Of a stretch of 64,000 nucleotides of DNA, positions 1,701 to 36,932 are shown one piece after another. The stretch is taken from the NCBI RefSeq assembly GCF_009363755.1, contig NZ_CP045417.1, positions 186,001-250,000 of the forward strand, read 5' to 3'. Each line of letters begins with the position of its first letter. Position 1 is the stretch's first letter. The DNA is from Halomonas sp. THAF5a (GTDB lineage Bacteria; Pseudomonadota; Gammaproteobacteria; Pseudomonadales; Halomonadaceae). The notes under the pieces are model-generated. The model was not told the DNA's origin and made no database searches. It saw only the letters and a list, made by a program, of their open reading frames with translations. The position numbers and the translations under genes were made by a program.

Positions 1701-1806
1701 GGGGATGAGCCGAAGAGGAGGTCCTACGCCATGGATGGCGTCGGTAGCGTACAAGGACGTATTCACAGCGCCTCCTCGCTGGTCCGACATTTCGGGGCTT
1801 GTCCCC
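1701..1806 (+). repeat. Intercistronic palindromic repeat, copy 1 (nrdJa-nrdJb)
   Basis: One of three related elements in the window. The outer arm GGGGATGAGCC (1701-1711) pairs with GGCTTGTCCCC (1796-1806); as RNA all 11 positions pair, two of them as a tandem U-G/G-U wobble. Inside is GAGGAGG (1715-1721) with CCTCCTC (1771-1777), and a small hairpin ACGCC/GGCGT (1726-1742) with an ATGGAT loop. This copy has about 16 extra bases before the right arm compared with copy 2. It lies between the two cistrons of one enzyme, so it should be in their shared mRNA. Short open frames through it are shadows, not genes. Confidence 0.85.
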
Positions 1807-1867
1807 GTCTCAGCCCCGAGCGATGGATGTCCAGTGCCACCCAACAACTTTTCGGAGGAGTCTCCTG

Positions 1868-2608
1868 ATGGCCGTCGAGATCACTTCCAAGATCGTCTCC
1901 TACAGCGTCAAGAAGGCGGTGGAAGCCCCGCCGCTGGCCGAGGAGAACCCGCTCACGGTGCGCATCCCCTCGCGCCCCGAGGGCACCCTGGAGGCCGTGT
2001 CGGAGAAGATCTCCTACGTCGGCGCCGAGGGGCGCAAGAAGGTCTACCTGCTGGTCTCCTTCATGCCCGTGGAGGGCGTGGTCAACGGCAAGCGGGTGGT
2101 GATCGAGCGCCCGGTGGAGTTCTTCTTTCCCTCTGGCCAGCTCTCCAGCGAGCACCAGTGGATCACCGCCACCATGCGCAGCCTGTCGCTGGCCGCCCGG
2201 GGCGGCTACGTCACCCAGGCGGTGGCCGACCTGCGCAAGGTGGCCTGGGACAAGGGCCTGGTGCGCTGCGGCATGAACCGCTGGGGCAAGCCGGTGTTCC
2301 ACGACTCCGAGGTCGCGGCCATCGCCTGGTCGATCCAGCAGATCCTCTACCGCCGCGGCTTCCTCGACCAGGATGGCCACCAGGTGCCGGTGGAGGAGCT
2401 GGTCAGCCGTTACGCCCAGCGCCTGGCGAGCGGCCGCCCCTGGCATCCGCCCACCCCGGAGGAGCTCGAGCAGGCCGACCGCCAGGCGCAGGAGCAGGGC
2501 GGTGGCCCCGCCGTGGTCGGCCACTGCCCCGAGTGCAACGGCGAGCTGATCATGATGGACGGCTGCCCCACCTGCTACTCCGGCTGCGGCTGGTCCAAGT
2601 GTGGATAA
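1868..2608 (+). CDS. nrdJb: Class II ribonucleotide reductase, C-terminal part NrdJb
   Basis: Supplies the C-terminal redox-active part of the split adenosylcobalamin-dependent reductase. It is 246 residues and starts at the ATG at 1868 behind GGAGGA (spacing 7-8), although the frame is open further upstream. The last ~28 residues contain CPEC, CPTC, C and a final C close to the terminus, the pattern of shuttle cysteines that re-reduce the active-site disulfide in NrdJa. By analogy with the P. aeruginosa split enzyme it must bind NrdJa to form an active reductase. The stop codon lies inside a perfect DnaA-box sequence. A strong bidirectional terminator follows at 2684. Confidence 0.93.
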   Translation: MAVEITSKIVSYSVKKAVEAPPLAEENPLTVRIPSRPEGTLEAVSEKISYVGAEGRKKVYLLVSFMPVEGVVNGKRVVIERPVEFFFPSGQLSSEHQWITATMRSLSLAARGGYVTQAVADLRKVAWDKGLVRCGMNRWGKPVFHDSEVAAIAWSIQQILYRRGFLDQDGHQVPVEELVSRYAQRLASGRPWHPPTPEELEQADRQAQEQGGGPAVVGHCPECNGELIMMDGCPTCYSGCGWSKCG

Positions 2609-2636
2609 GCGGGCCCGCTAGAGGGCCTGTGGATAA
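2600..2636. promoter_or_regulatory. Pair of perfect DnaA-box 9-mers
   Basis: TGTGGATAA (reverse complement TTATCCACA, the consensus DnaA box) occurs at 2600-2608, overlapping the nrdJb stop, and again at 2628-2636, in the same orientation, 28 bp apart. DnaA is known to regulate ribonucleotide reductase genes in other bacteria, but these boxes lie at the 3' end of the gene rather than at a promoter. A titration or auxiliary DnaA-binding site is an alternative. Confidence 0.55.
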
Positions 2637-2683
2637 CGCGGGCCGGCCCGGCTGAACGCCCGCGATGGGGGTAATAGCGATGG

Positions 2684-2724
2684 AGAGACGCCCCGGGACG
2701 CAGCGCGTTCCGGGGCGTCTCTTT
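2684..2724. terminator. Bidirectional rho-independent terminator between nrdJb and ubiV
   Basis: GAGACGCCCCGG and CCGGGGCGTCTC form a 12-bp perfect stem with a loop of about 13 bases. It is followed by TTTC on the plus strand and preceded by bases that give a short pyrimidine tract on the minus strand. It sits between the convergent ends of nrdJb and ubiV. Confidence 0.85.
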
Positions 2725-2752
2725 CATGTTGGCATGGGAAGGCGCGTTGCGC

Positions 2753-3670
2753 TCAGGGCGCGGCCGAGCCGCGGCTGTGGTCCATGCCCGGGCGGCCGTA
2801 CCAGTAGCCGTCGCAGACCTCGGCCTCCACCAGCGCCAGCGGGTCGGGGGCGGGAAGGGCGCCTCGCCGCGCCGCATCGAAGGCCGCGACCACCTCGGCC
2901 ATGCCCTCGGCGCGGGGACTCAGCCGGGCGCTCGCCACGCCCATCTCGGCCATGGTCGGCAGCTCGTGGCGCAGGTCCTGGCAGGCGCCGGAGAGGGTCT
3001 GGATGCCGTTCAGCGTGAACACCTCCCGGGATTCCTGGGAGCGCAGGGCGAGGCCCTCGGGATACTTCTGGCAGACGAACTGGCAGCGGTCCTTGGGCTT
3101 CTGGTGGCGCCGCGCGGTGAAGCAGCGTGACGACCAGGCCAGCGGCAGGTGACCGTAGGCGACGACCTCGCAGGGCTGCTCGAGCCCCCTGTCGCTACAG
3201 TCGGCCAGCAGCCGGGTCAGATCGTCTCGGGACATCTCCACCGGCGCCTGCCAGCCCTGCATGCCGGCGCGGGCCAGCACGGCCAGCGAGGCCGGGTTGT
3301 AGAGGTTCAGCGCGGCCCCGGCGACGAAGGGCAGGCCGGCAGCGGCGAGACGCTGCACCGCGCTCTGGTCGTTGGCCTCGACGGTGAACTCGCCATTGTC
3401 GCAGAGCCTGCGCAGGTCGCGCAGGTCGGCCTCGGACTCGATCAGGGTCTGGCTCGCCAGCACCACCCGCTTGCCGTTCTGGGCGAGCTCGCGGCCGATC
3501 CCCAGCCAGTCGTCGAGCTTCATGTCGCGGCGCCGGGAGCAGACCGACTCGCCCAGGGTGACGGTCTCGACGGGCCAGTCGGCGGCGGCGCAGTAGAAGG
3601 CGGCGTAGTCCTCGCGGGTCCAGTAGAAGAGCACCGGGCCAAGGCTCATTTCCAGGGTCGTGGCGGTCAT
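2753..3670 (-). CDS. ubiV: UbiV, O2-independent ubiquinone hydroxylation protein (U32 peptidase family)
   Basis: Partner of UbiU in the anaerobic ubiquinone pathway, where the complex uses prephenate as hydroxyl donor in place of the O2-dependent UbiI/H/F enzymes (known from E. coli). It is 305 residues; the ATG at 3670 follows AGGAGA. Four cysteines, C44, C183, C196 and C200, match the 4Fe-4S ligand pattern of UbiV. It lies 8 bp downstream of ubiU in the same direction, so the two are co-transcribed. In a nitrate-respiring cell this keeps ubiquinone supply independent of oxygen. A member of another U32 subfamily is unlikely given the paired arrangement and cysteines. Confidence 0.93.
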   Translation of the reverse strand: MTATTLEMSLGPVLFYWTREDYAAFYCAAADWPVETVTLGESVCSRRRDMKLDDWLGIGRELAQNGKRVVLASQTLIESEADLRDLRRLCDNGEFTVEANDQSAVQRLAAAGLPFVAGAALNLYNPASLAVLARAGMQGWQAPVEMSRDDLTRLLADCSDRGLEQPCEVVAYGHLPLAWSSRCFTARRHQKPKDRCQFVCQKYPEGLALRSQESREVFTLNGIQTLSGACQDLRHELPTMAEMGVASARLSPRAEGMAEVVAAFDAARRGALPAPDPLALVEAEVCDGYWYGRPGMDHSRGSAAP

Positions 3671-3678
3671 GAGGTCTC

Positions 3679-4674
3679 CTATTTCCAGCGCCGCTCGTAG
3701 GCGCCCAGGGTGGTTGTGGCGCCCTCGGAGAGCTCGCCGAGGCCGGCCATCCAGGCGGGCTCGGCGCGGAAGTGCCCGGGGGCGCGCTCGACACGATCCA
3801 GGGCCTGGCGCCAGATGCCGGCGACCTTCGAGACGTAGGCGGGGCTGCGCTGGCGTCCCTCGATCTTCACCGCGCTGATGCCCAGCTCCTTGAGCTCCGG
3901 GAGCAGCTCCAGGGTGTTGAGACTGGTCGGCTCCTCGATGGCGTGGTAGGTCTCGCCTCCCACCGCGAAGCGCCCCTTGCACAGGGTCGGGTAGCCGGCC
4001 CGTTCGCCCTCGGCGTAGCGGTCGATCAGCACGCCGTTGAGGCGTGACTCCCGGCCCCGGGGGGTCTCCTCCCAACGCACGTGGGCCGCCGGCGAGCAGA
4101 CGCCGCGGGTGTTGGGCGACTCGCCGGTGAGATACGACGACAGGTAGCAGCGCCCCTCGGCCATGATGCAGAGGCTGCCGAAGGCGAACACCTCGAGCTC
4201 CACCGGGCTCTGCTTCGCCAGGTCGCGGACCTGGGTGATCGAGAGCACCCGCGGCAGCACGGCGCGCTTGATGCCGAACTGCTCGTGGTAGAAGCGCAGC
4301 GCCTCATGGCTGGTCGCCGAGCCCTGCACCGAGAGGTGGCGGTCGAGGTGCGGGTGGCGGCGGGCGGCATAGTCGAGCAGCCCCATGTCGGCCAGGATCA
4401 GAGCGTCGACGCTGAGCTCGGCGGCCTGGTCCACGGCGCGGGTCCACATCGCCCAGCCGTCCGGCTGCGGGTAGGTATTGATGGCGCAGAACACCCGCTT
4501 TCCCCGGGCGTGGGCATAGTCGATGCCCTCCCCGGCGCGCTTGTCGGTGAAGTTGAGCCCGGCGAACTGGCGCGCGTTGGTGGTGTTCTGGAAGCCGAAG
4601 TAGACGGCATCGGCACCCTCGTTCACGGCTCGCTTGAGGGCGGGCAGGTTGCCGGCGGGGCAGACGAGCTCCAT
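3679..4674 (-). CDS. ubiU: UbiU, O2-independent ubiquinone hydroxylation protein (U32 peptidase family)
   Basis: Forms the heterodimeric Fe-S hydroxylation complex with UbiV for anaerobic ubiquinone synthesis. It is 331 residues. The four cysteines C169, C176, C193 and C232 fall at the positions I recall for the E. coli UbiU cluster ligands, which makes the call secure. It is first in a two-gene operon with ubiV. An ANR/FNR-like box lies about 100 bp upstream at 4771-4784, between ubiU and the divergent globin gene, and fits anaerobic induction. The third member of the pathway, the SCP2-domain protein UbiT, is not encoded anywhere in this window, although it is often a neighbour. Confidence 0.95.
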   Translation of the reverse strand: MELVCPAGNLPALKRAVNEGADAVYFGFQNTTNARQFAGLNFTDKRAGEGIDYAHARGKRVFCAINTYPQPDGWAMWTRAVDQAAELSVDALILADMGLLDYAARRHPHLDRHLSVQGSATSHEALRFYHEQFGIKRAVLPRVLSITQVRDLAKQSPVELEVFAFGSLCIMAEGRCYLSSYLTGESPNTRGVCSPAAHVRWEETPRGRESRLNGVLIDRYAEGERAGYPTLCKGRFAVGGETYHAIEEPTSLNTLELLPELKELGISAVKIEGRQRSPAYVSKVAGIWRQALDRVERAPGHFRAEPAWMAGLGELSEGATTTLGAYERRWK

Positions 4675-4770
4675 GGCGCGACTCCTCTCGATGAAATCCC
4701 GGCCATGCTAGTCGACCCGCCCGGCCCCGCCCTTGACGGGCGTCATCTCGGGCGGGCATTCGCCCCCGAC

Positions 4771-4784
4771 GTGATCCAGGTCAT
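4771..4784. promoter_or_regulatory. ANR/FNR-like box between ubiU and the globin gene
   Basis: GTGATCCAGGTCAT compares with the ANR/DNR consensus TTGAT-N4-GTCAA: the core TGAT and GTCA halves match and the outer bases differ. It can serve either divergent gene; its centre is about 95 bp from each start codon. Confidence 0.5.
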
Positions 4785-4872
4785 GTCCTGTCCACCGTTC
4801 GGCTCCCGGCCGTGGCGGGCATGCGCGCCTGGCCTAGGCTATGATCAGGCCCGTTCACCGTGCGGGGTGACC

Positions 4873-5301
4873 ATGGACATCGAGCGGCTCTTCGACGAGA
4901 GCTACGTGCGGGTGCTGAACCGCGAGGTCGAGGGGCAGGCGTTCTTCGCGATCTTCTACGACCGCTTCCTCGCCGCCTCGCCCGCGGTCGCCGAGAAGTT
5001 CCGCCATACCGACATGGCGCGCCAGCAGGCGATGCTCAAGAAGGCCTTCTACCACCTGCTGGCGTTCTACGCCTCGAGCCATACCGACTATTACCTGCAG
5101 CAGGTGGCGATCACCCACGACCGGGCCCACCGGGATATTTCTCCGAGGCTCTACGACCTCTGGCTCGAGAGTCTGATCGACACGGTGCGCGCCTTCGACG
5201 AGGCCTTCGACGACGACATCGAACTGGCCTGGCGGCTGGTGATGACCCCGGGCATCGTCTTCATGACCTTCCACTACGACCGGGGAAACGGCGACGGCTA
5301 G
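4873..5301 (+). CDS. Single-domain globin-like protein
   Basis: A 142-residue protein of all-helical globin size. Helix A/B carries FFAIFYDRFLAASP, and the segment THDRAHRDISPRLYDLWL (81-98) contains two histidines, H82 and H86, one of which is the likely proximal haem ligand. The closing TPGIVFM segment resembles a globin helix H. There is no attached signalling or reductase domain, so haem-based O2 or NO binding is a reasonable guess, not a demonstration. It starts at the ATG at 4873 and is transcribed away from ubiUV, sharing an intergenic region with an ANR-like box. The role in ubiquinone synthesis or NO metabolism is unknown. Confidence 0.7.
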   Translation: MDIERLFDESYVRVLNREVEGQAFFAIFYDRFLAASPAVAEKFRHTDMARQQAMLKKAFYHLLAFYASSHTDYYLQQVAITHDRAHRDISPRLYDLWLESLIDTVRAFDEAFDDDIELAWRLVMTPGIVFMTFHYDRGNGDG

Positions 5302-5421
5302 GACTTTCCGTGAACACCCTGGTGGGTTGACACGACTGGGCGCGTGCAGGGCCCCCGCGGGCGGACGTCCAGGGGGCGATGCCGCTGAGTCGGTAGACCT
5401 CGCGCCCGGTGCGAGGCGCCC

Positions 5422-6618
5422 TCAGCCGGCCGGCTCCGGATCCAGCGCCTGGCGCAGGTCGGCGAGCAGGTCCTCGACCTCCTCCAGGCCGATCGATAGC
5501 CGCAGCAGGTTGTCGCCGATGCCGCGCCGGGCGCGCTCCCGGGGCGAGAGATCGGCGTGGGAGGTGGTGCAGGGCTGGGTCACCAGGCTCTCGGCGCCGC
5601 CGAGGCTGGGCGCCAGCGCGAACAGCGCCAGCCGGTCGGCGACCCGGGCTGCCGCCTCGCCGCCGCCCGCCAGCTCGATGCCGAGCATGCCGCCGAACCC
5701 CGACATCTGGCGGCAGGCCAGCGCGTGCCCGGGATGGCTCGGAAGGCCCGGGTAGAGCACCCGGGCGAGGGCGGGGTGATTCGCTAGCGCCTCGGCGATC
5801 GTCTGGGCGGAGGCGCTGTGGCGCTGAACGCGCAGCGCCAGGGTGCGCAGGCTGCGGGACAGCAGCGCAGCCGTCTGGGGGGAGAGCGCCGTGCCCAGGC
5901 TCTGGCGCCATGCCCACATCGGCGACAGCACCTCGGCACTCCCCATCACGGCGCCGGCGGTAAGGTCGCCGTGGCCCCCCAGGTACTTGGTGGCGCTGTG
6001 CACCACCAGGTCGGCGCCCAGTGCCAGCGGATTCTGGTTGATCGGCGTGGCGAAGGTGCCGTCCACCGCGACCAGGGCGCCGTGACGGTGGGCCTGCTCG
6101 GCCACCGCGGCGACATCGATCAGCTGGAGCCTGGGGTTGGTCGGCGTCTCCAGATAGACCAGGCCCGCGCCCGCGACCAGGTATCGCTCCAGCGCCTCGG
6201 CGTCATGGCCCTCGAGCAGGCAGTGCGTGTCGATGCCCAAGCCCGGCAGATGTCGCTCGAGCAGGCTCATGGTGCCGCCGTAGACCTCGCCGAGGCAGAC
6301 GATGCCGCGCCGGCCGTGGGTCAGCAGCAGCGCGCTGATGGCGGCCATGCCCGAGCAGAAGGCCCAGGCCGACTCGGCCTGCTCCAGCGCCGCCAGGGTC
6401 TCCTCAAGGGCGTAGAGCGTGGGATTCTGGCCGTAGCGGGTATAGAGAGGGGCGCGTCGGCGCCCCTCGGTGACCTCGCGCAGCGCCGCGGTGTCGGGGT
6501 AGGCGAAGGTGGTGGTGTCGTAGATCGGCATGTGCGGGCTGCCGAAGGCGTCGCGCTGCCGCTGAGCGTGAATGGCCCGGGTCGCGGGGCCGTGGCGGGG
6601 CGGTTGGGAAGAGGACAT
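5422..6618 (-). CDS. Trans-sulfuration family PLP enzyme (cystathionine gamma-synthase / O-acylhomoserine sulfhydrylase type)
   Basis: 398 residues, the usual length of the Cys/Met-metabolism PLP family. Visible landmarks: the YTRYGQNPT substrate/PLP loop (59-67), SGMAAI (89-94) contacting the cofactor phosphate, the D186 region (VAVDGTFATP), and the PLP Schiff-base lysine K211 in HSATKYLGGHGD. It forms or breaks C-S bonds in homocysteine or cystathionine chemistry. Cystathionine gamma-synthase, O-acylhomoserine sulfhydrylase, cystathionine gamma-lyase and methionine gamma-lyase cannot be told apart by eye. It lies downstream of hmp in the same direction with a 99-bp gap and has its own RBS (AAGGAG), so it may be read from the hmp promoter or separately. 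Confidence 0.85.
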   Translation of the reverse strand: MSSSQPPRHGPATRAIHAQRQRDAFGSPHMPIYDTTTFAYPDTAALREVTEGRRRAPLYTRYGQNPTLYALEETLAALEQAESAWAFCSGMAAISALLLTHGRRGIVCLGEVYGGTMSLLERHLPGLGIDTHCLLEGHDAEALERYLVAGAGLVYLETPTNPRLQLIDVAAVAEQAHRHGALVAVDGTFATPINQNPLALGADLVVHSATKYLGGHGDLTAGAVMGSAEVLSPMWAWRQSLGTALSPQTAALLSRSLRTLALRVQRHSASAQTIAEALANHPALARVLYPGLPSHPGHALACRQMSGFGGMLGIELAGGGEAAARVADRLALFALAPSLGGAESLVTQPCTTSHADLSPRERARRGIGDNLLRLSIGLEEVEDLLADLRQALDPEPAG

Positions 6619-6717
6619 GGGAACTCCTTCGCGCGGTGAGAGGATTGGACGCGGCCCCGGCCCCCGGCGGGGAGGCCGTCCCGGGGTCGGGGTGGCATGA
6701 CCGGGCCCGACGTGCCG

Positions 6718-7887
6718 TCAGGCGGCCTCGAGGGGGCGGGAGGGGCCGAAGTGCTCGTAGTGGCGACGTTCCGCCGGCACGCCGAGGTCGGCCAGTGCCC
6801 GATCCACGGCGGTCATGAAGCCCGGGGGGCCAACGAAGTAGCAGCGGGCGCCCTCGGGCAGCAGATCGGCGAGCAGCTCGCGGTCGATGCGACCGATATG
6901 GTCGGCGTCGGCGCCGCGCTCATGGACGCTCACGGCATGCAGTCGCTGCGGGTGCGCGGAGGCCAGCGCCGCCACCTCGTCGCGGAAGGCGTGGTGCTCG
7001 GCGTCCAGGGCGGCGTGCAGGTAGATCACCCGGCGTCCCGCGGCCAGGGCGTGGCGCGCCATCGGCAGCAGCGGGGTCTGGCCGACGCCGCCGGAGGCCA
7101 GCAGCAGGGGCTCGTCCTCACCCTGCAGGATCAGCTCGCCGGCGGGCGGCAGCAGCTCCAGGGTGTCACCCACCGCCATGGCATCGTGGAAGTGGCGGCT
7201 CGCCCGGCCCTCGGGCTCGCGCTTGATCGAGATCCGGTAGGAGCGGCCGTTGGGCACGTCCGAGAGGCTGTAGTGGCGATAGAGCGGCTCGCCGTCGATG
7301 GTCAGCCGCACGCCGATGAACTGGCCGGGCGCGTGATCGGCCACCAGGCCGCCGTCCTCGGGCTCCAGCACGAAGGAACGGATCACCGCGCTCTCGCGGC
7401 GGATCTCGGCGATGCGAAAGCGCCGCGTGCCGCGCCAGCCGCCGGGGCGCTCGGCGAAGGCCCGGTAGCGGTGATCCTCCAGCTCGATGAGCAGGCCGGC
7501 GAGCTCCTCGTAGAGGGCGCTCCAGGCTCCGGCGACCTCCGGGGTCACCGCCTCGCCCAGCACCTCGCCGATGGCGGCCATCAGGCACTCGCCGACGATG
7601 GGGTACTGATCGGGCCGGATGCCCAGGGCGACGTGCTTGCCGACGATAGTACCCAGCGCCCCCCTGGCCTGCTGGGTATCCTCGCGCAGCCCCACGTAGG
7701 CCAGCACCGCGCCGGCCAGCGCCCGGGGCTGTCCGCCGTCGCGCTGATGGGCCTCGTTGAACAGCGGCTTCACCTCGGGGTAGCGCGAGAACATCAGCGG
7801 ATAGAAGCGCTGGGTGATGGCGTCGAGATGCTCCGCCACCGTGGGCGCGGTGGCGGCGATCAGGCGTTCCTGGTCTGGGGTCAGCAT
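6718..7887 (-). CDS. hmp: Flavohaemoglobin, NO dioxygenase Hmp
   Basis: Converts NO plus O2 to nitrate using NAD(P)H; cytoplasmic NO detoxification. It is 389 residues. The N-terminal globin domain has Y29 (B10), Q53 (E7) and proximal H85, the canonical trio. The central FAD-binding part has the YRHYSLSD motif, and the NAD-binding part has GGVGQTPLLPM. The frame continues upstream, but the ATG at 7887 gives the standard MLTPDQ-type N-terminus. A near-perfect NsrR palindrome lies 29 bp upstream, so induction by NO is expected. It stands next to other NO-related genes (nnrS, norCBQD). Confidence 0.96.
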   Translation of the reverse strand: MLTPDQERLIAATAPTVAEHLDAITQRFYPLMFSRYPEVKPLFNEAHQRDGGQPRALAGAVLAYVGLREDTQQARGALGTIVGKHVALGIRPDQYPIVGECLMAAIGEVLGEAVTPEVAGAWSALYEELAGLLIELEDHRYRAFAERPGGWRGTRRFRIAEIRRESAVIRSFVLEPEDGGLVADHAPGQFIGVRLTIDGEPLYRHYSLSDVPNGRSYRISIKREPEGRASRHFHDAMAVGDTLELLPPAGELILQGEDEPLLLASGGVGQTPLLPMARHALAAGRRVIYLHAALDAEHHAFRDEVAALASAHPQRLHAVSVHERGADADHIGRIDRELLADLLPEGARCYFVGPPGFMTAVDRALADLGVPAERRHYEHFGPSRPLEAA

Positions 7888-7915
7888 GGCGGGGCTCCGG
7901 TCAGGGGTGTCTTTT

Positions 7916-7938
7916 AAAGTGCATTTAAAATACATCTT
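7916..7938. promoter_or_regulatory. NsrR operator upstream of hmp
   Basis: A 23-bp imperfect palindrome with half-sites AAAGTGCATTT and AAATACATCTT (read on the plus strand), matching the 11-1-11 NsrR consensus of AAGATGCATTT-like arms. It lies in the expected promoter region of hmp. A second copy of the same motif stands before norC at 15854-15876, which strengthens the assignment to the NO-sensing repressor NsrR. Confidence 0.85.
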
Positions 7939-7987
7939 AAAGCCTGGCCCCGTCATCTCGCGGCGCTGACGCAAAATGTCGCAGGGA

Positions 7988-8554
7988 TCAGTAAGCCCAG
8001 ACGATGGTCATCAGCAGGCCCCAGGCCAGCACGCCGGCGGCCATGATCGTGTAGGCGGCCGACATGGTGTTGACGTCGTTGTCGCTGCGTCCACACAGCG
8101 CCTGCAGGCCGTGATAGAGCAGCTGACAGGAGATGCCGAGCGCCGTCAGCACGGCCAGGACGCCGAGCAGCAGGCTGGGGATCAGCAGGACGAGGGCCGA
8201 GGACCAGAGCGGCAGCGGCGCCAGGGCGGCCAGCAGGTAGGCGTCGTGATAGCTGATCGACAGCTCCCGGGTGCTGTTGACCACGGAGTGGATCAGCCAG
8301 CCCATCAGGAAGAAGGTGAGCAGCTCGGCCAGGAACAGGATGGTGGTGATGAAGCGCCACTCCCGGTCGGCGAAACCCATCACGAAGTCGTCGCCGTAGT
8401 GGGTGCCGGCGTAGTAGAGCATCACCGGGGGCAGCAGCGACATGGGTAGCACCAAACACCAGGCCAGCACGGGAATCGGCGTCTGGCGCTGTTGAAGCGA
8501 CTTCCAGCCGGCCTGGCGGGTGAAGGGCAGCTTGAAGATCGTCACGGGGTTCAT
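7988..8554 (-). CDS. YIP1-family membrane protein
   Basis: 188 residues with about five hydrophobic segments (near 31-52, 66-90, 106-140, 165-188) and a short cytoplasmic N-terminus. The layout and the segment MNPVTIFKLPFTRQAGW resemble YIP1/DUF1282 proteins. Function is unknown. The ATG at 8554 follows GAGGAG; an ATG eight codons upstream has no RBS. It is divergent from the MarR gene at 8697, with a TGATA/TATCA inverted-repeat array between them, so the MarR protein probably controls both. It lies 100 bp upstream of hmp, in the NO-related neighbourhood, but no direct link can be shown. Confidence 0.65.
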   Translation of the reverse strand: MNPVTIFKLPFTRQAGWKSLQQRQTPIPVLAWCLVLPMSLLPPVMLYYAGTHYGDDFVMGFADREWRFITTILFLAELLTFFLMGWLIHSVVNSTRELSISYHDAYLLAALAPLPLWSSALVLLIPSLLLGVLAVLTALGISCQLLYHGLQALCGRSDNDVNTMSAAYTIMAAGVLAWGLLMTIVWAY

Positions 8555-8573
8555 GGGAGGCTCCTCGCGTCCG

Positions 8574-8600
8574 GGCATGATAAAATATCACGGCATGATA
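8574..8600. promoter_or_regulatory. Candidate MarR operator
   Basis: TGATA-AAA-TATCA (8578-8590) overlaps TATCA-CGGCA-TGATA (8586-8600), giving two nested inverted repeats. GGCATGATA is also directly repeated at 8574 and 8592. The array lies immediately upstream of the YIP1 gene and about 100 bp before the marR start. Assignment to the adjacent MarR protein is inferred from position only. Confidence 0.45.
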
Positions 8601-8696
8601 TAGTTGCTTAACCTTTTAGGCCCCGGCCCCCTCCCTGTCAAGCGACACGGACGCCGCCGGATCGCCCCACTTCCCTCTTTCGGATCGAGAACGGCC

Positions 8697-11439: not shown

Positions 11440-11470
11440 GGTATCGCGGCCATGGTGGCCGCTTGGACAA

Positions 11471-18686: not shown

Positions 18687-18803
18687 AAAGGGGGCGTCGG
18701 GGACAAGCCGAAGAGGAGGTCCTACGCCATGGATGGCGTCGGTAGCGTACAGGGAGGTATTCACAGCGCCTCCTCGCAGGCTTGTCCCCGAATTAGCCCC
18801 TTT
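18687..18803 (+). repeat. Intercistronic palindromic repeat, copy 2 (norQ-norD), the most complete
   Basis: Terminal arms AAAGGGG (18687-18693) and CCCCTTT (18797-18803); then a perfect 12-bp stem CGGGGACAAGCC (18698-18709) with GGCTTGTCCCCG (18779-18790); then GAGGAGG with CCTCCTC; then the inner ACGCC/GGCGT hairpin around bases 18724-18740. The central ~70 bases are almost identical to copy 1. It fills most of the 163-bp gap between two genes that act as one complex. Confidence 0.9.
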
Positions 18804-29769: not shown

Positions 29770-29802
29770 CCCCGCCGGTCTAACCCCTCTCTCGGCGCCG
29801 CC

Positions 29803-29818
29803 TATCCCCTTGGGGGTA
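29803..29818. promoter_or_regulatory. NarL-type 7-2-7 site upstream of narG
   Basis: TATCCCC-TT-GGGGGTA is a near-palindromic pair of NarL-like heptamers 155 bp before the narG start. I found no TTGAT-N4-ATCAA box in the narG upstream region, unlike narK2. Confidence 0.6.
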
Positions 29819-29972
29819 GGGGCCATGTATATGGAGGTAACCGGGCAGTAATCGGCGTGACGATGACCCAGAATCGGCCCCAACGACCCTGACCGCGAGC
29901 GAACTAGGCGGCGGTGCAGGAGGGGTGGCCCGGGGCGGTCACGCATCTTTTCGAGGAGCCTGGAGAGCGACC

Positions 29973-32900
29973 ATGAGTCACTTTATCGATCGGCTGAACT
30001 TCTTCCGCAAGGCCCGCGAGCCCTTCGCGAACGAGCATGGCGAACTCCGACAGGAGTCTCGCGAGTGGGAGGACGGCTACCGCAAGCGCTGGCAGCACGA
30101 CAAGGTCGTGCGCTCCACTCACGGGGTGAACTGCACCGGGTCGTGCAGCTGGAAGATCTACGTCAAGAACGGCCTGGTCACCTGGGAGACCCAGCAGACC
30201 GACTACCCGCGCACCCGGCCCGACCTGCCCAACCACGAGCCGCGGGGCTGCCCGCGGGGCGCCAGCTACTCCTGGTATCTCTACAGCGCCAACCGCCTCA
30301 AGCACCCGATGATCCGCAAGCCGCTGCTCAAGCTGTGGCGCGAGGCGCTCGCCGACAAGGGCGACCCGGTCGACGCCTGGGCCTCCATCGTCGAGGACCC
30401 GGCCAAGGCCAAGCAGTACAAGCGCGCCCGGGGCATGGGCGGCTTCGTGCGTGCCGACTGGAACGAGGTCAACCAGCTGATCGGCGCCTCCAACGTCTAC
30501 ACCGCCAAGCAGTACGGCCCGGATCGCATCATCGGCTTCTCGCCGATCCCCGCCATGTCGATGGTCAGCTACGCTGCGGGCAGCCGCTACCTGTCACTGA
30601 TCGGCGGCGTCTGCATGAGCTTCTACGACTGGTACTGCGACCTGCCGCCGGCCTCGCCGATGACCTGGGGCGAGCAGACCGACGTTCCCGAGTCCGCCGA
30701 CTGGTACAACTCCGGCTACATCATCGCCTGGGGCTCCAACGTGCCCCAGACCCGCACCCCGGACGCCCACTTCTTCACCGAGGTGCGCTACAAGGGCACC
30801 AAGACCGTCTCGGTGACCCCGGACTACGCCGAGGTCTCCAAGCTTACCGACGAGTGGCTCTCCGCCAAGCAGGGCACCGATGCCGCCCTGGCCATGGCCA
30901 TGGGTCACGTGATCCTCAAGGAGTTCCACCTCGAGAACCCCAGCACCTACTTCACCGACTACGTGCGGCGCTACTCCGACATGCCCTGCCTGGTCGAGCT
31001 GGAGGCGCGGGAGGACGGCAGCTACGCGCCGGGCCGCCAGCTGCGTGCCAGCGACATCGCCGACAACCTGGGCCAGGCCAACAATCCCGAGTGGAAGACC
31101 CTGGCCTGGGATGAGACCTCCGACAGCCTCGTCGTCCCGCGCGGCTCCATCGGCTTCCGCTGGGGCGAGACCGGCGAGGAGGTCGGCAAGTGGAACCTCG
31201 AGTCCCGGGACGCCGCCGGCGCCGAGATCAAGCCGCTGCTGACCCTGGCCGAGCACCATGACGAGGTGGCCAGGGTCGCCTTCCCCTACTTCGGCGGCAT
31301 TGCCCACGAGCACTTCGACCACGTCAAGAGCGGCGGGGCCAGCGACGAGCTGCTGTTCCACAGCCTGCCGGTCAAGCGCCTGAAGAAGTCCGACGGCAGC
31401 GAGGCGCTGATCGCCACCGTCTTCGACCTGATGTGCGCCAACTACGGCATCGATCGCGGTTTCGGCAAGGAGGGCGAGGACGACGGCGCCACCGCCTACG
31501 ACCAGGTCAAGCCCTACACCCCGGCCTGGCAGGAGAAGATCACCGGCGTGCCCGCCGAGCAGGCCACCCGCATCGCCCGGGAGTTCGCCGACAACGCGAA
31601 CAAGACCCAGGGGCGCTCCATGATCATCGTCGGTGCCGGCATGAACCACTGGTACCACATGGACATGAACTACCGCGGCCTGATCAACATGCTGATCATG
31701 TGCGGCTGCATCGGCCAGAGCGGCGGCGGCTGGTCCCACTACGTGGGCCAGGAGAAGCTGCGCCCGCAGACCGGCTGGACGCCGCTGGCCTTCGGCCTCG
31801 ACTGGCACCGCCCGCCGCGGCACATGAACTCCACCTCCTTCTTCTACAACCACTCCTCCCAGTGGCGCTACGAGAAGCTCGAGATCAAGGAGATCCTGTC
31901 GCCGCTGGCCAATCCGGCCGATTACTCCGGCAGCCTGATCGACTTCAACGTGCGCTCCGAGCGCATGGGCTGGCTGCCCTCCGCGCCGCAGCTCGGCACC
32001 AACCCGCTGCGCCTGGCCAAGGCCGCCGAGGCCGCCGGCCTGTCGACCAAGGACTACGCCGTGCAGCAGCTCAAGGAGGGCAAGCTCGCCTTCGCCGCGG
32101 AGGACCCGGACAACCCCCAGAACTTCCCGCGCAACCTGTTCGTGTGGCGCTCCAACCTGCTGGGCAGCTCCGGCAAGGGCCACGAGTACATGCTCAAGTA
32201 TCTGCTGGGCACCCGCCACGGCATCCAGGGCAAGGACCTGGGCGAGGAGGGCGGCACCAAGCCCGAGGAGGTCAAGTGGCACGACGAGGCCCCCGAGGGC
32301 AAGCTCGACCTGCTGGTGACCCTGGACTTCCGCATGTCCACCACCTGCCTCTACTCGGACGTCGTGCTGCCCACGGCGACCTGGTACGAGAAGGACGACC
32401 TCAACACCTCCGACATGCATCCCTTCATCCACCCGCTCACCGCGGCTACCGACCCGGCCTGGGAGTCGCGCAGCGACTGGGAGATCTTCAAGGGCATCGC
32501 CAAGGCCTTCTCCGCGGCCACCGAGGGGCACCTGGGTGAGGAGACCGACCTGGTCACCCTGCCGCACCAGCACGACTCCCCGGCCGAGCTGGCCCAGCTC
32601 GAGGTCAAGGACTGGAAAAGGGGCGAGTGCGAGCCGATCCCTGGCAAGACCATGCCGGCGCTGATCGAGGTCAAGCGCAACTACCCCGAGACCTATGAGC
32701 GCTTCACCTCCGTGGGCCCGCTGCTCGAGGAGGTCGGCAACGGCGGCAAGGGCATCGCCTGGAAGACCGAGAAGGAGGTCAAGCTGCTGGGCGATCTCAA
32801 CCACCGCAAGACCGAGGGGCCGCACAAGGGGCGCCCGCGCCTCGACAGCGCCGTCGACGCCGCCGAGATGATCCTAACCCTGGCCCCGGAGACCAACGGC

Positions 32901-33749
32901 CAGGTGGCGGTGAAGGCCTGGGACGCGCTCTCCAAGATCACCGGCCGCGACCACACCCACCTCGCCGAGCCCAAGGAGGAGGAGAAGATCCGCTTCCGCG
33001 ACATCGTCGCCCAGCCGCGCAAGATCATCTCCAGCCCCACCTGGTCGGGCCTCGAGGACGAGCATGTCTCCTACAACGCCGGCTACACCAACGTGCATGA
33101 GCTGATTCCGTGGCGCACGGTGAGCGGGCGCCAGCAGTTCTACCAGGATCACCCCTGGATGCGCGCCTTCGGCGAAAGCCTGCTGGTCTATCGTCCGCCC
33201 ATCGACACCAAGGCGGCGGTGAGCGTGGCCGAACCCAAGGGCAACGGCAACCCGGAGATCGCGCTGAACTGGATCACCCCGCACCAGAAGTGGGGCATCC
33301 ACTCCACCTACTCGGACAACCTGCTGATGCAGACCCTGTCTCGGGGCGGCCCCATCGTCTGGCTCTCCGAGGACGACGCCCAGTCCATCGGCGTCGAGGA
33401 CAACGACTGGATCGAGCTCTACAACGCCAACGGCGCCATCGCGGCCCGGGCGGTGGTCAGCCAGCGGGTCAAGAACGGCATGGCGATGATGTACCACGCC
33501 CAGGAGCGGATCCTGAACATGCCCGGCTCCGAGCAGACTGGCACCCGCGGCGGCATCCACAACTCGGTCACCCGGGTCTGCCCCAAGCCGACCCACATGA
33601 TCGGCGGCTATGCGCAGCTCTCCTACAGCTTCAACTACTACGGCACCGTCGGCTCCAACCGCGACGAGTTCGTCATCGTGCGCAAGATGAAGAAGATCGA
33701 CTGGCTGGACGGCGAAGGCAACGACTACGAGCAGGAGGCCGTGAAATGA
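29973..33749 (+). CDS. narG: Respiratory nitrate reductase alpha subunit NarG
   Basis: 1258 residues (E. coli NarG is 1247). Reduces nitrate to nitrite at a Mo-bisMGD centre on the cytoplasmic side. The FS0 cluster ligands H50, C54, C58 and C93 have the E. coli pattern. D223 in YCDLPPASPMTWGEQTD corresponds to the Mo-ligating Asp. The ATG at 29973 follows GGAGAG. First gene of narGHJI, with its stop overlapping narH by four bases (ATGA). There is no Tat-type signal, so this is the membrane-bound cytoplasm-facing enzyme. Confidence 0.98.
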   Translation: MSHFIDRLNFFRKAREPFANEHGELRQESREWEDGYRKRWQHDKVVRSTHGVNCTGSCSWKIYVKNGLVTWETQQTDYPRTRPDLPNHEPRGCPRGASYSWYLYSANRLKHPMIRKPLLKLWREALADKGDPVDAWASIVEDPAKAKQYKRARGMGGFVRADWNEVNQLIGASNVYTAKQYGPDRIIGFSPIPAMSMVSYAAGSRYLSLIGGVCMSFYDWYCDLPPASPMTWGEQTDVPESADWYNSGYIIAWGSNVPQTRTPDAHFFTEVRYKGTKTVSVTPDYAEVSKLTDEWLSAKQGTDAALAMAMGHVILKEFHLENPSTYFTDYVRRYSDMPCLVELEAREDGSYAPGRQLRASDIADNLGQANNPEWKTLAWDETSDSLVVPRGSIGFRWGETGEEVGKWNLESRDAAGAEIKPLLTLAEHHDEVARVAFPYFGGIAHEHFDHVKSGGASDELLFHSLPVKRLKKSDGSEALIATVFDLMCANYGIDRGFGKEGEDDGATAYDQVKPYTPAWQEKITGVPAEQATRIAREFADNANKTQGRSMIIVGAGMNHWYHMDMNYRGLINMLIMCGCIGQSGGGWSHYVGQEKLRPQTGWTPLAFGLDWHRPPRHMNSTSFFYNHSSQWRYEKLEIKEILSPLANPADYSGSLIDFNVRSERMGWLPSAPQLGTNPLRLAKAAEAAGLSTKDYAVQQLKEGKLAFAAEDPDNPQNFPRNLFVWRSNLLGSSGKGHEYMLKYLLGTRHGIQGKDLGEEGGTKPEEVKWHDEAPEGKLDLLVTLDFRMSTTCLYSDVVLPTATWYEKDDLNTSDMHPFIHPLTAATDPAWESRSDWEIFKGIAKAFSAATEGHLGEETDLVTLPHQHDSPAELAQLEVKDWKRGECEPIPGKTMPALIEVKRNYPETYERFTSVGPLLEEVGNGGKGIAWKTEKEVKLLGDLNHRKTEGPHKGRPRLDSAVDAAEMILTLAPETNGQVAVKAWDALSKITGRDHTHLAEPKEEEKIRFRDIVAQPRKIISSPTWSGLEDEHVSYNAGYTNVHELIPWRTVSGRQQFYQDHPWMRAFGESLLVYRPPIDTKAAVSVAEPKGNGNPEIALNWITPHQKWGIHSTYSDNLLMQTLSRGGPIVWLSEDDAQSIGVEDNDWIELYNANGAIAARAVVSQRVKNGMAMMYHAQERILNMPGSEQTGTRGGIHNSVTRVCPKPTHMIGGYAQLSYSFNYYGTVGSNRDEFVIVRKMKKIDWLDGEGNDYEQEAVK

Positions 33750-35326
33750 AGATTCGTTCCCAGGTAGGCATGGTCCTCAACCTCGACAAGTGCATCGGCT
33801 GTCATACCTGCTCGGTGACCTGCAAGAACGTCTGGACCAGCCGCGAGGGCGTCGAGTACGCCTGGTTCAACAACGTCGAGACCAAGCCCGGCATCGGCTA
33901 TCCCAAGGAGTGGGAGAACCAGAGCAAGTGGAAGGGCGGCTGGATGCGCCGCAAGGATGGCAAGATCGAGCCGCGTATCGGCGGTAAGTGGCGGGTGCTG
34001 GCGAACATCTTCGCCAACCCCGACCTGCCGGAGATCGATGACTACTACGAGCCGTTCACCTTCGACTACGAGCACCTGCACACCGCCAAGCAGGGCGAGC
34101 ATCAGCCCACCGCGCGGCCGCGCTCGCTGATCTCCGGTCAGCGCATGAACAAGATCGAGTGGGGCCCGAACTGGGAGGAGATCCTCGGCACCGAGTTCGC
34201 CAAGCGGCGCAAGGACATGAACTTCGAGAAGGTGCAGGCCGACATCTACGGCCAGTTCGAGAACACCTTCATGATGTACCTGCCGCGGCTGTGCGAGCAC
34301 TGCCTCAACCCCACCTGCGTGGCGAGCTGCCCCTCAGGGGCGATCTACAAGCGCGAGGAGGACGGCATCGTCCTGATCGACCAGGACAAGTGCCGCGGCT
34401 GGCGGATGTGCATCTCCGGCTGCCCGTACAAGAAGATCTACTACAACTGGAAGACCGGCAAGTCCGAGAAGTGCATCTTCTGCTACCCGCGCATCGAGGC
34501 CGGCCAGCCGACCGTCTGCTCCGAGACCTGCGTGGGCCGCATCCGCTACCTCGGCGTGCTGCTCTACGACGCCGATCGCATCGAGGAGGTGGCGAGCTCA
34601 CCGGACGAGCGCGATCTCTACCATCGCCAGCGCGAGATCTTCCTGGACCCCAACGACCCGGAGGTGATCGCTCAGGCCAGGCAGGACGGCATTCCCGACA
34701 ACGTGATCAAGGCAGCCCAGGCCTCGCCGGTCTACAAGCTGGCCATGGACTGGGGCCTGGCGCTGCCGCTGCACCCGGAGTATCGCACCCTGCCGATGGT
34801 CTGGTACGTGCCGCCGCTGTCGCCGATCCAGTCCGCCGCCGAGGCCGGCAAGGTCGAGTTCGACGGCGTGATGCCCAGGATCGAGTCGCTGCGCATCCCG
34901 GTGAAGTACCTGGCCAACATGCTCACCGCCGGCGAGGAGGAACCCGTGGTGCTGGCGCTCAAGCGCCTGATGGCCATGCGCCTCTACATGCGCGGCAAGC
35001 ACGTGGAGGGCCAGGCCAACACCGAGGTGCTGGAGGGCGTCGATCTCACCGAGGGGCAGGTGGAGGAGATGTACCGGTATCTCGCCATCGCCAACTACGA
35101 GGATCGCTTCGTGATCCCGACGAGTCACCGCGAGATGGCCACCGAGGCGTTTCCGGAGCGCGGCGGCTGTGGCTTCAGCTTCGGTGACGGCTGCCACGGC
35201 GACAGCGGCCAGAGCCTGTTCGGCGGGCGCAAGACCACCGCCACCCTGGTCAAGCCGGTGGAGACCTTCGATCCGAAGGGCGAGGCGCGGCGCGACGAGA
35301 CAACCGAGGAGGCCCGTCATGGCTGA
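33746..35326 (+). CDS. narH: Respiratory nitrate reductase beta subunit NarH
   Basis: 526 residues. Four Fe-S clusters carry electrons from NarI haem b to NarG. Cluster motifs are intact: CIGCHTCSVTC at the N-terminus, CEHCLNPTCVASCP, the 3Fe-4S-type CRGWRMC with tryptophan in place of the fourth cysteine, and CIFCYPRIEAG...CSETC. It starts inside the narG stop and overlaps narJ by eight bases, so the operon is translationally coupled. The length is slightly above the E. coli protein (512). Confidence 0.98.
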   Translation: MKIRSQVGMVLNLDKCIGCHTCSVTCKNVWTSREGVEYAWFNNVETKPGIGYPKEWENQSKWKGGWMRRKDGKIEPRIGGKWRVLANIFANPDLPEIDDYYEPFTFDYEHLHTAKQGEHQPTARPRSLISGQRMNKIEWGPNWEEILGTEFAKRRKDMNFEKVQADIYGQFENTFMMYLPRLCEHCLNPTCVASCPSGAIYKREEDGIVLIDQDKCRGWRMCISGCPYKKIYYNWKTGKSEKCIFCYPRIEAGQPTVCSETCVGRIRYLGVLLYDADRIEEVASSPDERDLYHRQREIFLDPNDPEVIAQARQDGIPDNVIKAAQASPVYKLAMDWGLALPLHPEYRTLPMVWYVPPLSPIQSAAEAGKVEFDGVMPRIESLRIPVKYLANMLTAGEEEPVVLALKRLMAMRLYMRGKHVEGQANTEVLEGVDLTEGQVEEMYRYLAIANYEDRFVIPTSHREMATEAFPERGGCGFSFGDGCHGDSGQSLFGGRKTTATLVKPVETFDPKGEARRDETTEEARHG

Positions 35327-36101
35327 AGCCGCACAACAGATGCAAACGGTGGCAGACATGCTGAGCCTGCGCGTGCTGGCCCGACTGCTCGATTACCCCA
35401 CCACCGAGCTGCAGGCCTCGGTACCCGAGATGATCGAGATCCTCGACGCGGAGCGCCGCCTGCCGGCGGCGTGCCGCGCCGCGCTGATGGAGTGGTGCCA
35501 GCGCACGCTTGAAGCCGACCTTATGGACCTGCAGGCGGAGTACGTGGCGCTGTTCGACCGCGGCCGCAATACCTCGCTGCTGCTCTTCGAGCACGTCCAC
35601 GGCGAGTCCCGCGACCGCGGCCAGGCGATGGTCGACCTGATGGCCGAGTACACCGCCGCGGGCTTCGAGCTGGATGCCCACGAACTGCCGGACTACCTGC
35701 CGCTGTTTCTGGAGTACCTCTCCACCCGCGACGAGGCCGAGATCGGCCGCTGGCTGGGCGAGATCCGCCACATCCTGGCGCTGCTGACCGCGCGCCTGGA
35801 GGAGCGCGACGCCGACCACGCCCTGGTGCCGCTGGCGCTGCTGGCGCTGATCGGCGCCGAGGGCGAGGTCGACGCCCATCGCCAGACGGCGCAGGAGGAG
35901 GCCCCCGACTACACCGCCGAGGCGCTGGACCAGGTATGGGAGGAGGAGGCGGTACGCTTCACCGCCGAATCCGACCAGGACTGCGCGCTGCAGTCCGCCG
36001 AGGGGCGCCGGCTCGCCGAGCGCAAGCAGGCCGTGCCCAGCGACCCCGTCAGAATCATGCCCGGCAGCGGCCCGACCGAACGCGGCCCGACCGAACGCTA
36101 A
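35319..36101 (+). CDS. narJ: NarJ, nitrate reductase maturation chaperone
   Basis: 260 residues. A TorD/DmsD-family helical chaperone that holds NarGH for Mo-cofactor insertion and membrane docking. Typical segments: LARLLDYPTTELQ, LFDRGRNTSLLLFEHVHGESRDRGQAMVDL and ELPDYLPLFLEYLS. The ATG at 35319 overlaps narH. The C-terminal tail is unusual: GPTERGPTER, encoded by a 15-bp direct duplication (about 36069-36098), giving a short repeat just before the stop. Confidence 0.95.
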   Translation: MAEAAQQMQTVADMLSLRVLARLLDYPTTELQASVPEMIEILDAERRLPAACRAALMEWCQRTLEADLMDLQAEYVALFDRGRNTSLLLFEHVHGESRDRGQAMVDLMAEYTAAGFELDAHELPDYLPLFLEYLSTRDEAEIGRWLGEIRHILALLTARLEERDADHALVPLALLALIGAEGEVDAHRQTAQEEAPDYTAEALDQVWEEEAVRFTAESDQDCALQSAEGRRLAERKQAVPSDPVRIMPGSGPTERGPTER

Positions 36102-36112
36102 GGAGAACCGTC

Positions 36113-36796
36113 ATGTTTGGCGAATACCTGCAACACCTCATCTATGGCTACTATCCCTACCTGGCCGGCACGGTGTTCCTGGTCGGCAGCCTGCTGCGCT
36201 ATGACCACGGCCAGTACACCTGGAAGACCGGCTCCAGCCAGATGCTCTCGTCGAGGAACATGCGTCTGGCCAGCAACCTCTTCCACATCGGCATTCTGGT
36301 GATCTTCTTCGGCCACCTGTTCGGCATGCTGACGCCGCACTGGGTCTATGCGCCCTTCCTGCACGCCGGCACCAAGCAGCTGCTAGCGATCGTGGTGGGC
36401 GGCATCGCCGGCGTCCTCTGCGTGGTGGGCGGGGCCATGCTCTTCTATCGGCGTCTGACCAACCCCCGGGTGAAGGCCTCCTCGAGCACCATGGACACGG
36501 TCATCCTCGGGCTGATCGTCTTCCAAGCGGCGCTGGGCCTGATCACCGTGATCTTCTCCCTGGGTCACCTGGACGGCGCGATGATGCTGACACTCTCCAG
36601 CTGGGCGCAGTCCATCGTCTTCTTCAGCGGCGGGGCGGCGGACTACATGGCCGAGGTCTCCTGGATCTACAAGCTCCATATCTTCATCGGCCTGACCATC
36701 ATCCTGCTGTTCCCGTTCTCGCGCCTGGTACACGTGTGGAGCGTGCCCTTCGGCTACGTGACCCGCCGCTACCAGCTGGTGCGCAAGCGGGGCTGA
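36113..36796 (+). CDS. narI: Respiratory nitrate reductase gamma subunit NarI
   Basis: 227 residues with five transmembrane helices. It oxidises quinol and passes electrons through two b haems to NarH. Haem-ligand histidines H58, H68, H189 and H207 correspond to E. coli H56, H66, H187 and H205. The start at 36113 follows AAGGAGA, 11 bp after narJ. Last structural subunit; repeat copy 3 lies between it and the parvulin gene. Confidence 0.97.
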   Translation: MFGEYLQHLIYGYYPYLAGTVFLVGSLLRYDHGQYTWKTGSSQMLSSRNMRLASNLFHIGILVIFFGHLFGMLTPHWVYAPFLHAGTKQLLAIVVGGIAGVLCVVGGAMLFYRRLTNPRVKASSSTMDTVILGLIVFQAALGLITVIFSLGHLDGAMMLTLSSWAQSIVFFSGGAADYMAEVSWIYKLHIFIGLTIILLFPFSRLVHVWSVPFGYVTRRYQLVRKRG

Positions 36797-36823
36797 GCAG
36801 AAAGGTTGCCGCTACGTCCGGCC

Positions 36824-36932
36824 AGGGCGCCGGGGGCAGGGCGAAGAGGAGGTCCGACGCCAGGGAGGGCGTCGGTAGCGCCCAGGGAGGGGTTCATAGC
36901 ACCTCCTCGCAGTCCTGCCGCCGGAAAGCCCC
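36824..36932 (+). repeat. Intercistronic palindromic repeat, copy 3 (narI-parvulin)
   Basis: The most diverged copy. The outer arm CCGGGGGCAGG (36830-36840) pairs with CCTGCCGCCGG (36914-36924) with one mismatch, although its sequence differs from copy 2: the pairing is kept by compensatory changes. The middle arm GAGGAGGT pairs with ACCTCCTC (8 bp), and the inner hairpin GACGCC/GGCGTC gains one pair over the other copies. Same orientation relative to transcription as copies 1 and 2. Confidence 0.85.

Follow-up and report, generated by a model that had tools for sequence, protein, structure and literature searches.

Three palindromic elements lie between genes in the analysed window, a 64,000-nt stretch of the Halomonas sp. 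THAF5a genome, and they are best explained as copies of a MITE-like mobile repeat from a gammaproteobacterial superfamily that includes YPAL/RU-2 of Yersinia. This MITE-like repeat probably carries a putative dual CsrA-binding RNA module, whose transcribed copies would titrate CsrA or tether it to mRNAs. The fold of one strand is alike in each lineage, an outer stem bearing two hairpins with A-N-GGA-N loops whose GGA triplets lie 19-20 nt apart, and by sequence these predicted twin ANGGAN loops match the published dual-site signature of CsrA/RsmA.

The existence of a structured three-copy repeat in the window, as put forward in a preliminary description of this DNA, was confirmed by sequence reading, by the covariance model R1, by BLAST and by folding. 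Copies 2 and 3 belong to the 33 of 42 aligned copies of the same genome from which R1 was built, so that their scores of 125.7 and 118.7 bits are matches by construction, and copy 1, which was outside that set, scores 86.7 bits. With copy 2 as query, BLAST recovers copy 1 at an E-value of 5.6e-31 and copy 3 at 1.4e-21, and the z-scores for RNA folding are -2.2, -5.8 and -6.3 for copies 1, 2 and 3, respectively. Copy 1 (positions 1693-1806, plus strand) has about 20 extra nucleotides in its 3' arm and lies between the stop codon of the nrdJ large chain gene at 1663 and the ATG of the next gene at 1868; sequence and alignment place the hexaloops AUGGAU at 1731-1736 in its hairpin 1 and AAGGAC at 1753-1758 in its hairpin 2, both on the plus strand. 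Copy 2 (18691-18801, plus strand) is enclosed by an outer stem of 12 bp seen in sequence and fold (5' arm 18698-18709, 3' arm 18779-18790), followed by the inner stem GAGGAGG (18713-18719 with 18769-18775), which covaries across copies as helix 3. Its hairpin 1 (18721-18742, loop AUGGAU at 18729-18734) is evident from sequence, fold and covariation of helix 4, and its hairpin 2 (18745-18767, loop AGGGAG at 18751-18756) from sequence and covariation of helix 5; hairpin 2 has basal GC/GC pairs and a UUCAC bulge, according to the sequence and to the refined structure of relatives, and the gap from GGA to GGA is 19 nt. Copy 3 (36824-36934, plus strand) follows narI, whose stop codon is at 36796, and its sequence contains the hexaloop AGGGAG in hairpin 1 (36862-36867) as well as in hairpin 2 (36884-36889). 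The outer stem had been described as 12 bp in copy 2, with wobbles in copy 1 and altered yet paired bases in copy 3, and it was found as described. All three copies also follow a stop codon and precede a gene on the same strand, in line with the intercistronic position first proposed. The names given to the partner genes fared less uniformly, since nrdJ large chain and narI pass the NCBIfam cut-offs whereas norQ and parvulin fall below theirs and nrdJb and norD have no match; norQ and norD, which flank copy 2, the parvulin-like gene after copy 3, and nrdJb are therefore the names of the preliminary description.

Searching the Halomonas sp. THAF5a genome with R1 yields 58 copies at or above 54 bits, which are dispersed and of which 2 lie inside a called ORF. 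The unit measures about 113 bp and its outer arms form inverted repeats. The spread through related genomes that had been anticipated was observed, with the family present in 34 of the 37 searched genomes of the genus, and relatives of the element occur in at least 71 of 369 searched gammaproteobacterial genomes, where the shared core sits in repeat units whose outer parts differ from genome to genome. A check for target-site duplication found AGCGA-like flanks at the nrdJ insertion; because the same flanks recur at other sites, they may belong to the element. With copy 2 as the sole query, the Halomonas-type element was absent from 50,697 phage records and matched one of 72,556 plasmid records, a 1.8-Mb Halomonas replicon, and carriage by phages or plasmids was rejected on these counts.

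Base changes across copies support the folded form, as had been argued from the three window copies. In the alignment from the THAF5a genome both partners have changed in 28 of 37 pairs, with 136 compensatory cells against a shuffle mean of 35, and among relatives, using the refined structure, 27 of 31 pairs covary, with 323 compensatory cells against a shuffle mean of 79. A second alignment displays covariation at 25 of 26 pairs, its further pair types not exceeding shuffles (202/500). The suggested signal for one single strand was likewise recovered, as G-U outnumbers A-C in all four alignments counted (55:30, 11:0, 6:2 and 49:25). Template-switch correction of palindromes could be a source of covariation without selection on RNA.

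The twin ANGGA loops went unmentioned in the preliminary description. Both hairpins have an ANGGAN loop in 53 of 59 aligned copies from the THAF5a genome, with a gap of 19 nt in all 53, the loop of hairpin 1 being altered or aligned to another length in the other 6, and in all 32 rows of a class set (the best-scoring match from each of 30 genomes plus neighbours, one partial row dropped), with a gap of 20 nt in 31 rows and 19 nt in one; these counts are biased towards the modelled loops, because the alignments (A2, A3, A7 and A9) are model-fitted and the rows of the class set were taken as the top-scoring matches. A model-independent test used a pattern for the hairpin 2 half only, which located 124 places, together with 929 control segments. 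A hairpin with an ANGGAN hexaloop and a stem of 5 bp or more stands just upstream at 79 of the 124 places and at none of the controls, and where any hexaloop hairpin adjoins a pattern place, loop positions 3-5 read GGA in 79 of 82 cases. By this strict rule hairpin 1 is missing at 45 of the 124 places; among 25 such places that were listed, many keep the GGA, on a stem that is shorter or in a loop of 5 nt.

The published SELEX consensus of CsrA/RsmA is RUACARGGAUGU, which occurs exactly in 4 of the 32 class rows and in 1 of the 59 rows from the THAF5a genome. Most SELEX hairpins are reported with at most 4 contiguous pairs, and the stem of hairpin 1 has about 8. For dual sites, the published bridging range is 10-63 nt with an optimum above 18 nt, and in rows with both loops the paired predicted sites at 19-20 nt fall within it. 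The csrA gene is present in Halomonas sp. THAF5a and, among genomes at least 90% complete, in 57 of 58 carriers of the element versus 223 of 256 non-carriers, an association for which genome size and clade may be confounders. The exception is one well-assembled carrier (G252) without a csrA match, as is also the case for four less complete carriers.

For YPAL, the core was compared by eye with the RU-2 sequence as printed in Table 1b of PMC2759123, in which an AAGGAU-loop hairpin is followed by GAGCC, UACAUGGAUGUA and UUUACGGCG. The element has the same core order, namely an ANGGA hairpin, AGC, a further ANGGA hairpin, UUYAC and GC, and shares with YPAL/RU-2 that its copies are dispersed, intergenic and insertion-polymorphic; YPAL is reported to be mobile and intergenic, with targets spanning or adjoining dyads (PMC2229807). 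The YPAL unit, however, is 168 bp long with Yersinia-type arms, whereas the element has about 113 bp and other arms, and it is thus a relative of YPAL and not YPAL proper. Among the papers listed in our literature search, none ties YPAL/RU-2 to CsrA. In Yersinia proxima, model R2 locates a copy at L238 363-446 on the plus strand, and the Rfam family Ysr224 (RF02770) reaches 94 bits (gathering threshold 70) on its opposite strand (L238 375-481, minus). Ysr224 is thus the reverse strand of the Yersinia copy, but it is annotated on the strand without ANGGA loops. On the reverse strand it also gives weak matches of 24-31 bits to copy 2 of the window (24.2 bits) and two other relatives, and no match in 5 of 8 relatives scanned; it was a weak reverse-strand match of this kind that pointed to the Yersinia link. 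In Rfam 15, YPAL and its relatives were matched here via this reverse-strand entry only, and a known Rfam family for the window element was rejected, none scoring above gathering. REP/BIME sequences are many-copy extragenic palindromes linked to RAYT transposases, which the element resembles in being extragenic and in many copies; it differs from them in its larger size and CsrA-like loops, and a REP of the RAYT type was rejected, as the THAF5a genome contains no Y1 transposase of the REP/IS200 type (PF01797).

In the proposed mechanism the payload would be a one-strand RNA module, a long stem closing a junction with two ANGGAN-hexaloop hairpins. When the element strand is transcribed within an operon, as part of a 3' UTR or through read-through, a single CsrA/RsmA dimer would bridge the loops, and each transcribed copy would sequester CsrA much as a single dual-site module of CsrB/RsmZ does; CsrA would perhaps also be tethered between genes, altering mRNA stability or translation. 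The module would be kept since it helps the element to spread or to be tolerated, and not as a tuned operon switch at each insertion. Many copies may not display the loops in mRNA, because antisense is about as frequent as sense outside the THAF5a genome. Whether the superfamily as a whole keeps one putative dual CsrA-binding junction in different mobile frames, so that its copies act as scattered CsrA sponges or recruiters and the repeat load of a host partly determines its CsrA economy, we regard as evenly balanced. Such a link would tie unexplained repeats, YPAL and its relatives, to CsrA, a global RNA-binding regulator that ranks among the most thoroughly studied. Should CsrA bind, each genome would offer tens of dual sites in competition with CsrB/Rsm decoys and with mRNA targets already known, which would affect the prediction of CsrA targets and the design of CLIP studies in these bacteria, and the question why a mobile element carries the binding site of a host regulator becomes testable.

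The preliminary description had proposed an intercistronic RNA that might act in cis by serving mRNA processing, shielding a 3' end or tuning subunit ratios, where processing could mean RNase III on the long stem and the shielded 3' end would be the upstream one; of this interpretation the structured, covarying and widespread element stands, whereas an element built into operons does not. The stable folds are in its favour, as are a sense bias relative to co-directional genes in the THAF5a genome (33 sense to 16 antisense, p = 0.02), the start of 22 of these 33 sense copies 20-40 nt past the upstream stop codon, and the report in PMC2229807 that ERIC repeats destabilise upstream transcripts and that YPAL possibly affects RNA stability. 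The bias is nevertheless confined to this genome, the ratio in other sets being 62:55, and a strong orientation bias was rejected as a general feature; the preliminary description had itself named random orientation as a refutation, and the near-random orientation seen here speaks against subunit tuning being the general function. At the nrdJ site the element occupies 6 of 30 orthologous spacers of the genus and the insertion differs between species, so a conserved operon element was rejected there, no shared function was seen in a small sample of 20 neighbouring genes, and a generic processing stem has no need of two ANGGA loops. We consider a cis-acting role of this kind rather unlikely.

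A purely mobile DNA palindrome, in which a transposase or integrase would recognise hairpins and GGA loops in single-stranded DNA and the RNA would be functionless, agrees with the dispersed and polymorphic copies, their near-random orientation outside the THAF5a genome and the differing outer parts, and the excess of G-T over A-C also fits recognition of single-stranded DNA. We judge it unlikely: it leaves the match of loops and spacing to the CsrA consensus, free N included, as coincidence, the THAF5a genome lacks PF01797, the sole transposase family sought, and the core is unlike a transposase end because it is common to units with different outer parts. An autonomous family of sRNA genes with its own promoter at each copy would follow the same loop logic as CsrB/CsrC and RsmX/Y/Z, in which GGA in hairpin loops, often with two such loops together, forms the described CsrA/RsmA sites, and as TwoAYGGAY (RF01731), which matches the CsrA motif strongly at two places and has been proposed to sequester CsrA (PMC4333381). 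Room for another decoy may exist in the THAF5a genome, where CsrB (RF00018) has no match and RsmY (RF00195) matches only below its cut-off, the RsmY model giving weak matches, none above cut-off, in 13 of 14 control genomes as well; a canonical decoy identity by the CsrB and RsmY models was rejected, no match above cut-off being found in the window or the genome. CsrB/CsrC and RsmX/Y/Z, however, are sRNA genes with several sites, whereas the element is a dispersed module with one dual site behind genes, and TwoAYGGAY has no match in the window, in copy 2 alone or in 8 relatives. Moreover, no shared promoter is seen upstream of the element in the 58 copies, because sequence conservation reaches only some 2-4 nt beyond the outer stem, and we hold such a gene family to be quite improbable.

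A protein-coding reading was set aside as well. To the eye, the changes in its stems and its indels make the element look non-protein-coding, and a protein search with one frame through copy 1 gave no match. The remark in the preliminary description that similar sequences are mistranslated as small hypothetical proteins is supported, since one frame through copy 2 matches three such proteins, including ones from Modicisalibacter xianhensis and Halomonas sp. BC04, which presumably arose by translating copies of the repeat.

The three repeats that the preliminary description placed in the window are present as described, at 1693-1806, 18691-18801 and 36824-36934, all on the plus strand, and belong to a much larger MITE-like repeat family. 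With copy 2 as BLAST query at least 40 copies were found in the 3.81-Mb genome of Halomonas sp. THAF5a (40 of 72 candidates scored; three of the 43 BLAST rows are short reverse-strand matches). Forty-two copies from this genome were aligned, and 33 of them formed alignment A1 and the covariance model R1; the nine set aside, which include copy 1, have a 3' arm that is extended or changed. R1 finds 68 matches in the genome at E <= 0.01, and the window holds three of the 58 that reach at least 54 bits. In these 58 copies conservation fades about 2-4 nt beyond the outermost stem, which gives a unit of about 113 bp. Outside this genome the repeat is widespread, R1 matches being present in 34 of the 37 genus genomes (this one counted) and in five of 21 other genomes of the order. 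Genome G041 contains paired elements in opposite orientation with about 200 nt between them (loci L100, L105 and L120), and two of the weak, below-cut-off RsmY matches in the own genome (G000:C1:1578809-1578874 and 2769196-2769250) both lie on element copies.

The element strand folds into an outer stem enclosing two hairpins, and this fold is maintained by compensatory change. In A1, standard pairs fill 92.7% of 1220 pair cells, and at 28 of 37 pairs both partners have changed. The alignment contains 136 compensatory cells, where shuffles average 35 (none of 500 gets to 136) and sliding the pairing partners by 1-3 columns gives 17-27. Alignment A6, fifteen sequences from three other families, has 131 compensatory cells against 44 in shuffles, its further pair types not rising above shuffles (202 of 500). 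Alignment A7, comprising 33 matches from class-wide genomes, is 95.8% paired with 323 compensatory cells against 79, where A7 was fitted to model R2, and the structures tested on A1 and A6 came from those alignments themselves. Class-wide, the outer stem measures at least 15 bp and hairpin 1 about 8-10 bp, while hairpin 2 is built of three upper pairs, the conserved bulge UUYAC and, at its base, a GCN/N'GC helix. The third pair of this helix varies in A7 (C-G 20, G-C 4, U-A 3, A-U 2, unpaired 4), and of 125 pattern places among the matches listed, 81 have a Watson-Crick pair there (47 expected) and 41 have G facing A. Seven copies in genome G330 (L218-L224) have a common core, and their outer 20 bp or so vary yet, judged by eye, stay largely paired, which suggests target-derived arms or palindrome correction.

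Compensated stems could likewise be produced by template-switch repair of palindromes, and pairing kept in DNA only would make G-T and A-C mismatches equally frequent. On the element strand of the own copies G-U outnumbers A-C by 55 to 30 (leaving aside two fixed wobble pairs and the columns that pair poorly), in sense (27:13) as in antisense copies (19:11). The ratio is 11:0 in A7, 6:2 in A6 and 49:25 in A9, a noisy fitted alignment with 165 other mismatches. This excess, counted in related rows, indicates that selection acts on a single strand, for which RNA is not the sole candidate; the RNA-level selection proposed in the preliminary description is borne out in part.

Hairpin 1 and hairpin 2 alike are capped by a hexaloop A-N-GGA-N. 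Both loops fit in all 32 A7 rows (one partial row dropped), with the GGAs 20 nt apart in 31 and 19 nt in one, in rows that are mostly each genome's best match, a choice favouring modelled loops. In the own genome both fit in 53 of 59 rows (71 matches minus five weak rows and duplicates), always at 19 nt. As a model-free test the hairpin 2 half alone was run as a pattern over public genomes, and 79 of the 124 distinct places listed, Halomonas included, had a hairpin of 5 bp or more with an ANGGAN hexaloop upstream, against none of 929 control segments. The 80 pattern-match records listed bear names that we assign to the Gammaproteobacteria, including Halomonas, Marinobacter, Microbulbifer, Stenotrophomonas, Shewanella, Alteromonas, Rheinheimera, Idiomarina, Methylococcaceae, Halorhodospira and Yersinia proxima. 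Loci L186 and L142 carry a nested insertion in hairpin 1, by eye one more ANGGA hairpin, with an AUGGAU loop flanked by short complementary arms.

Such loops resemble binding sites of CsrA, whose SELEX consensus, according to a review (PMC7652899), is RUACARGGAUGU with GGA in the hairpin loop of 51 of 55 ligands, and whose dimer spans two sites separated by 10 to 63 nt (optimum >18 nt), a range to be set beside the element's 19-20 nt. The exact consensus occurs in four of 32 class rows and one of 59 own rows, the remaining rows having ANGGA with other stem pairs. The own genome has one CsrA match, a 68-aa protein with Arg44, the residue altered in the bridging work (PMC7652899). In the class sample, where at least 71 of 369 genomes are carriers (12 candidates scored per genome), csrA is present in 66 of 71 carriers and 247 of 298 non-carriers (p = 0.04), and in 57 of 58 versus 223 of 256 among genomes at least 90% complete (p = 0.009). 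The sole carrier of that completeness without csrA is G252; the other four are 67-88% complete. Genome size or clade may be the source of this association. The repeat family is established, with its fold, loops, spacing and spread. The element RNA is probably bound by CsrA; that it acts as a decoy or local regulator is a more tentative proposal, with the chances slightly against it.

The preliminary description also proposed operon tuning. Between co-directional genes lie 33 of the 58 own copies in sense and 16 in antisense orientation; a further five have convergent neighbours, two have divergent ones, and two fall within a called ORF (ORFs from our own caller; Pfam matches for 20 of 20 neighbouring ORFs tested). 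Sense:antisense counts elsewhere are 12:10 in each of two genus sets (29 and 33 copies), 11:11 in other families of the order (39 copies), 8:9 in the class sample (32 copies) and 19:15 in pattern-scan loci (80 matches in 65 of 119 loci listed, Halomonas-type excluded), the other copies being convergent, divergent, at edges, inside or far. Pooled, in sets that may overlap in genomes, this gives 62:55 outside the own genome (p = 0.58) and 95:71 with it (p = 0.07). Sense copies in the genus cluster 20-40 nt past a stop codon, as do 22 of the 33 in the own genome and 10 of 12 in another genus set, antisense copies there also lie near a stop codon, and distances are looser beyond the genus. The nrdJ spacer was compared in 30 genomes (61 searched, 54 with the gene): six contain the element, in one case with hairpin 1 interrupted by a nested insertion; six more, by eye, have an apparent 3' outer arm only, soon after the stop codon (L187, L189, L190, L191, L196 and L203); and 18 are without it, one of these (L199) lacking a clear spacer in the stretch compared. 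Hence the site is polymorphic for the insertion, and with the 62:55 orientation this leaves operon tuning unsupported as a general role. In genome G305 (L205-L208) the core sits within a different mobile frame, about 165 bp long with TATACCC/GGGTATA ends, and in G124 (L209-L217) within a larger repeat, in either orientation to that repeat's flanks, as if the core flips.

Among known elements, Yersinia YPAL/RU-2 has the core in common, according to the sequence printed in PMC2759123. The Y. proxima locus (L238) matches R2 at 46.9 bits, and Rfam Ysr224 scores 94 bits on the reverse strand of its element (L238 375-481), so that Ysr224 may be annotated on the strand lacking CsrA-like loops. YPAL is described in PMC2229807 as mobile, targeting dyads and possibly affecting upstream transcript stability. 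TwoAYGGAY has been put forward as a CsrA-binding RNA (PMC4333381), but its model gives no match to the element, and the CsrB-like molecules of Alteromonas described in PMC5864184 are sRNAs, unlike this repeat. The open-licence literature, incompletely covered, yielded no link between such repeats and CsrA, which is absent from the searched portions of two papers on MITE-derived RNA (PMC5896051, PMC10969869). Apart from the repeats, the window contains a TPP riboswitch at 60920-61020 on the minus strand, which at 63.5 bits exceeds the gathering score.
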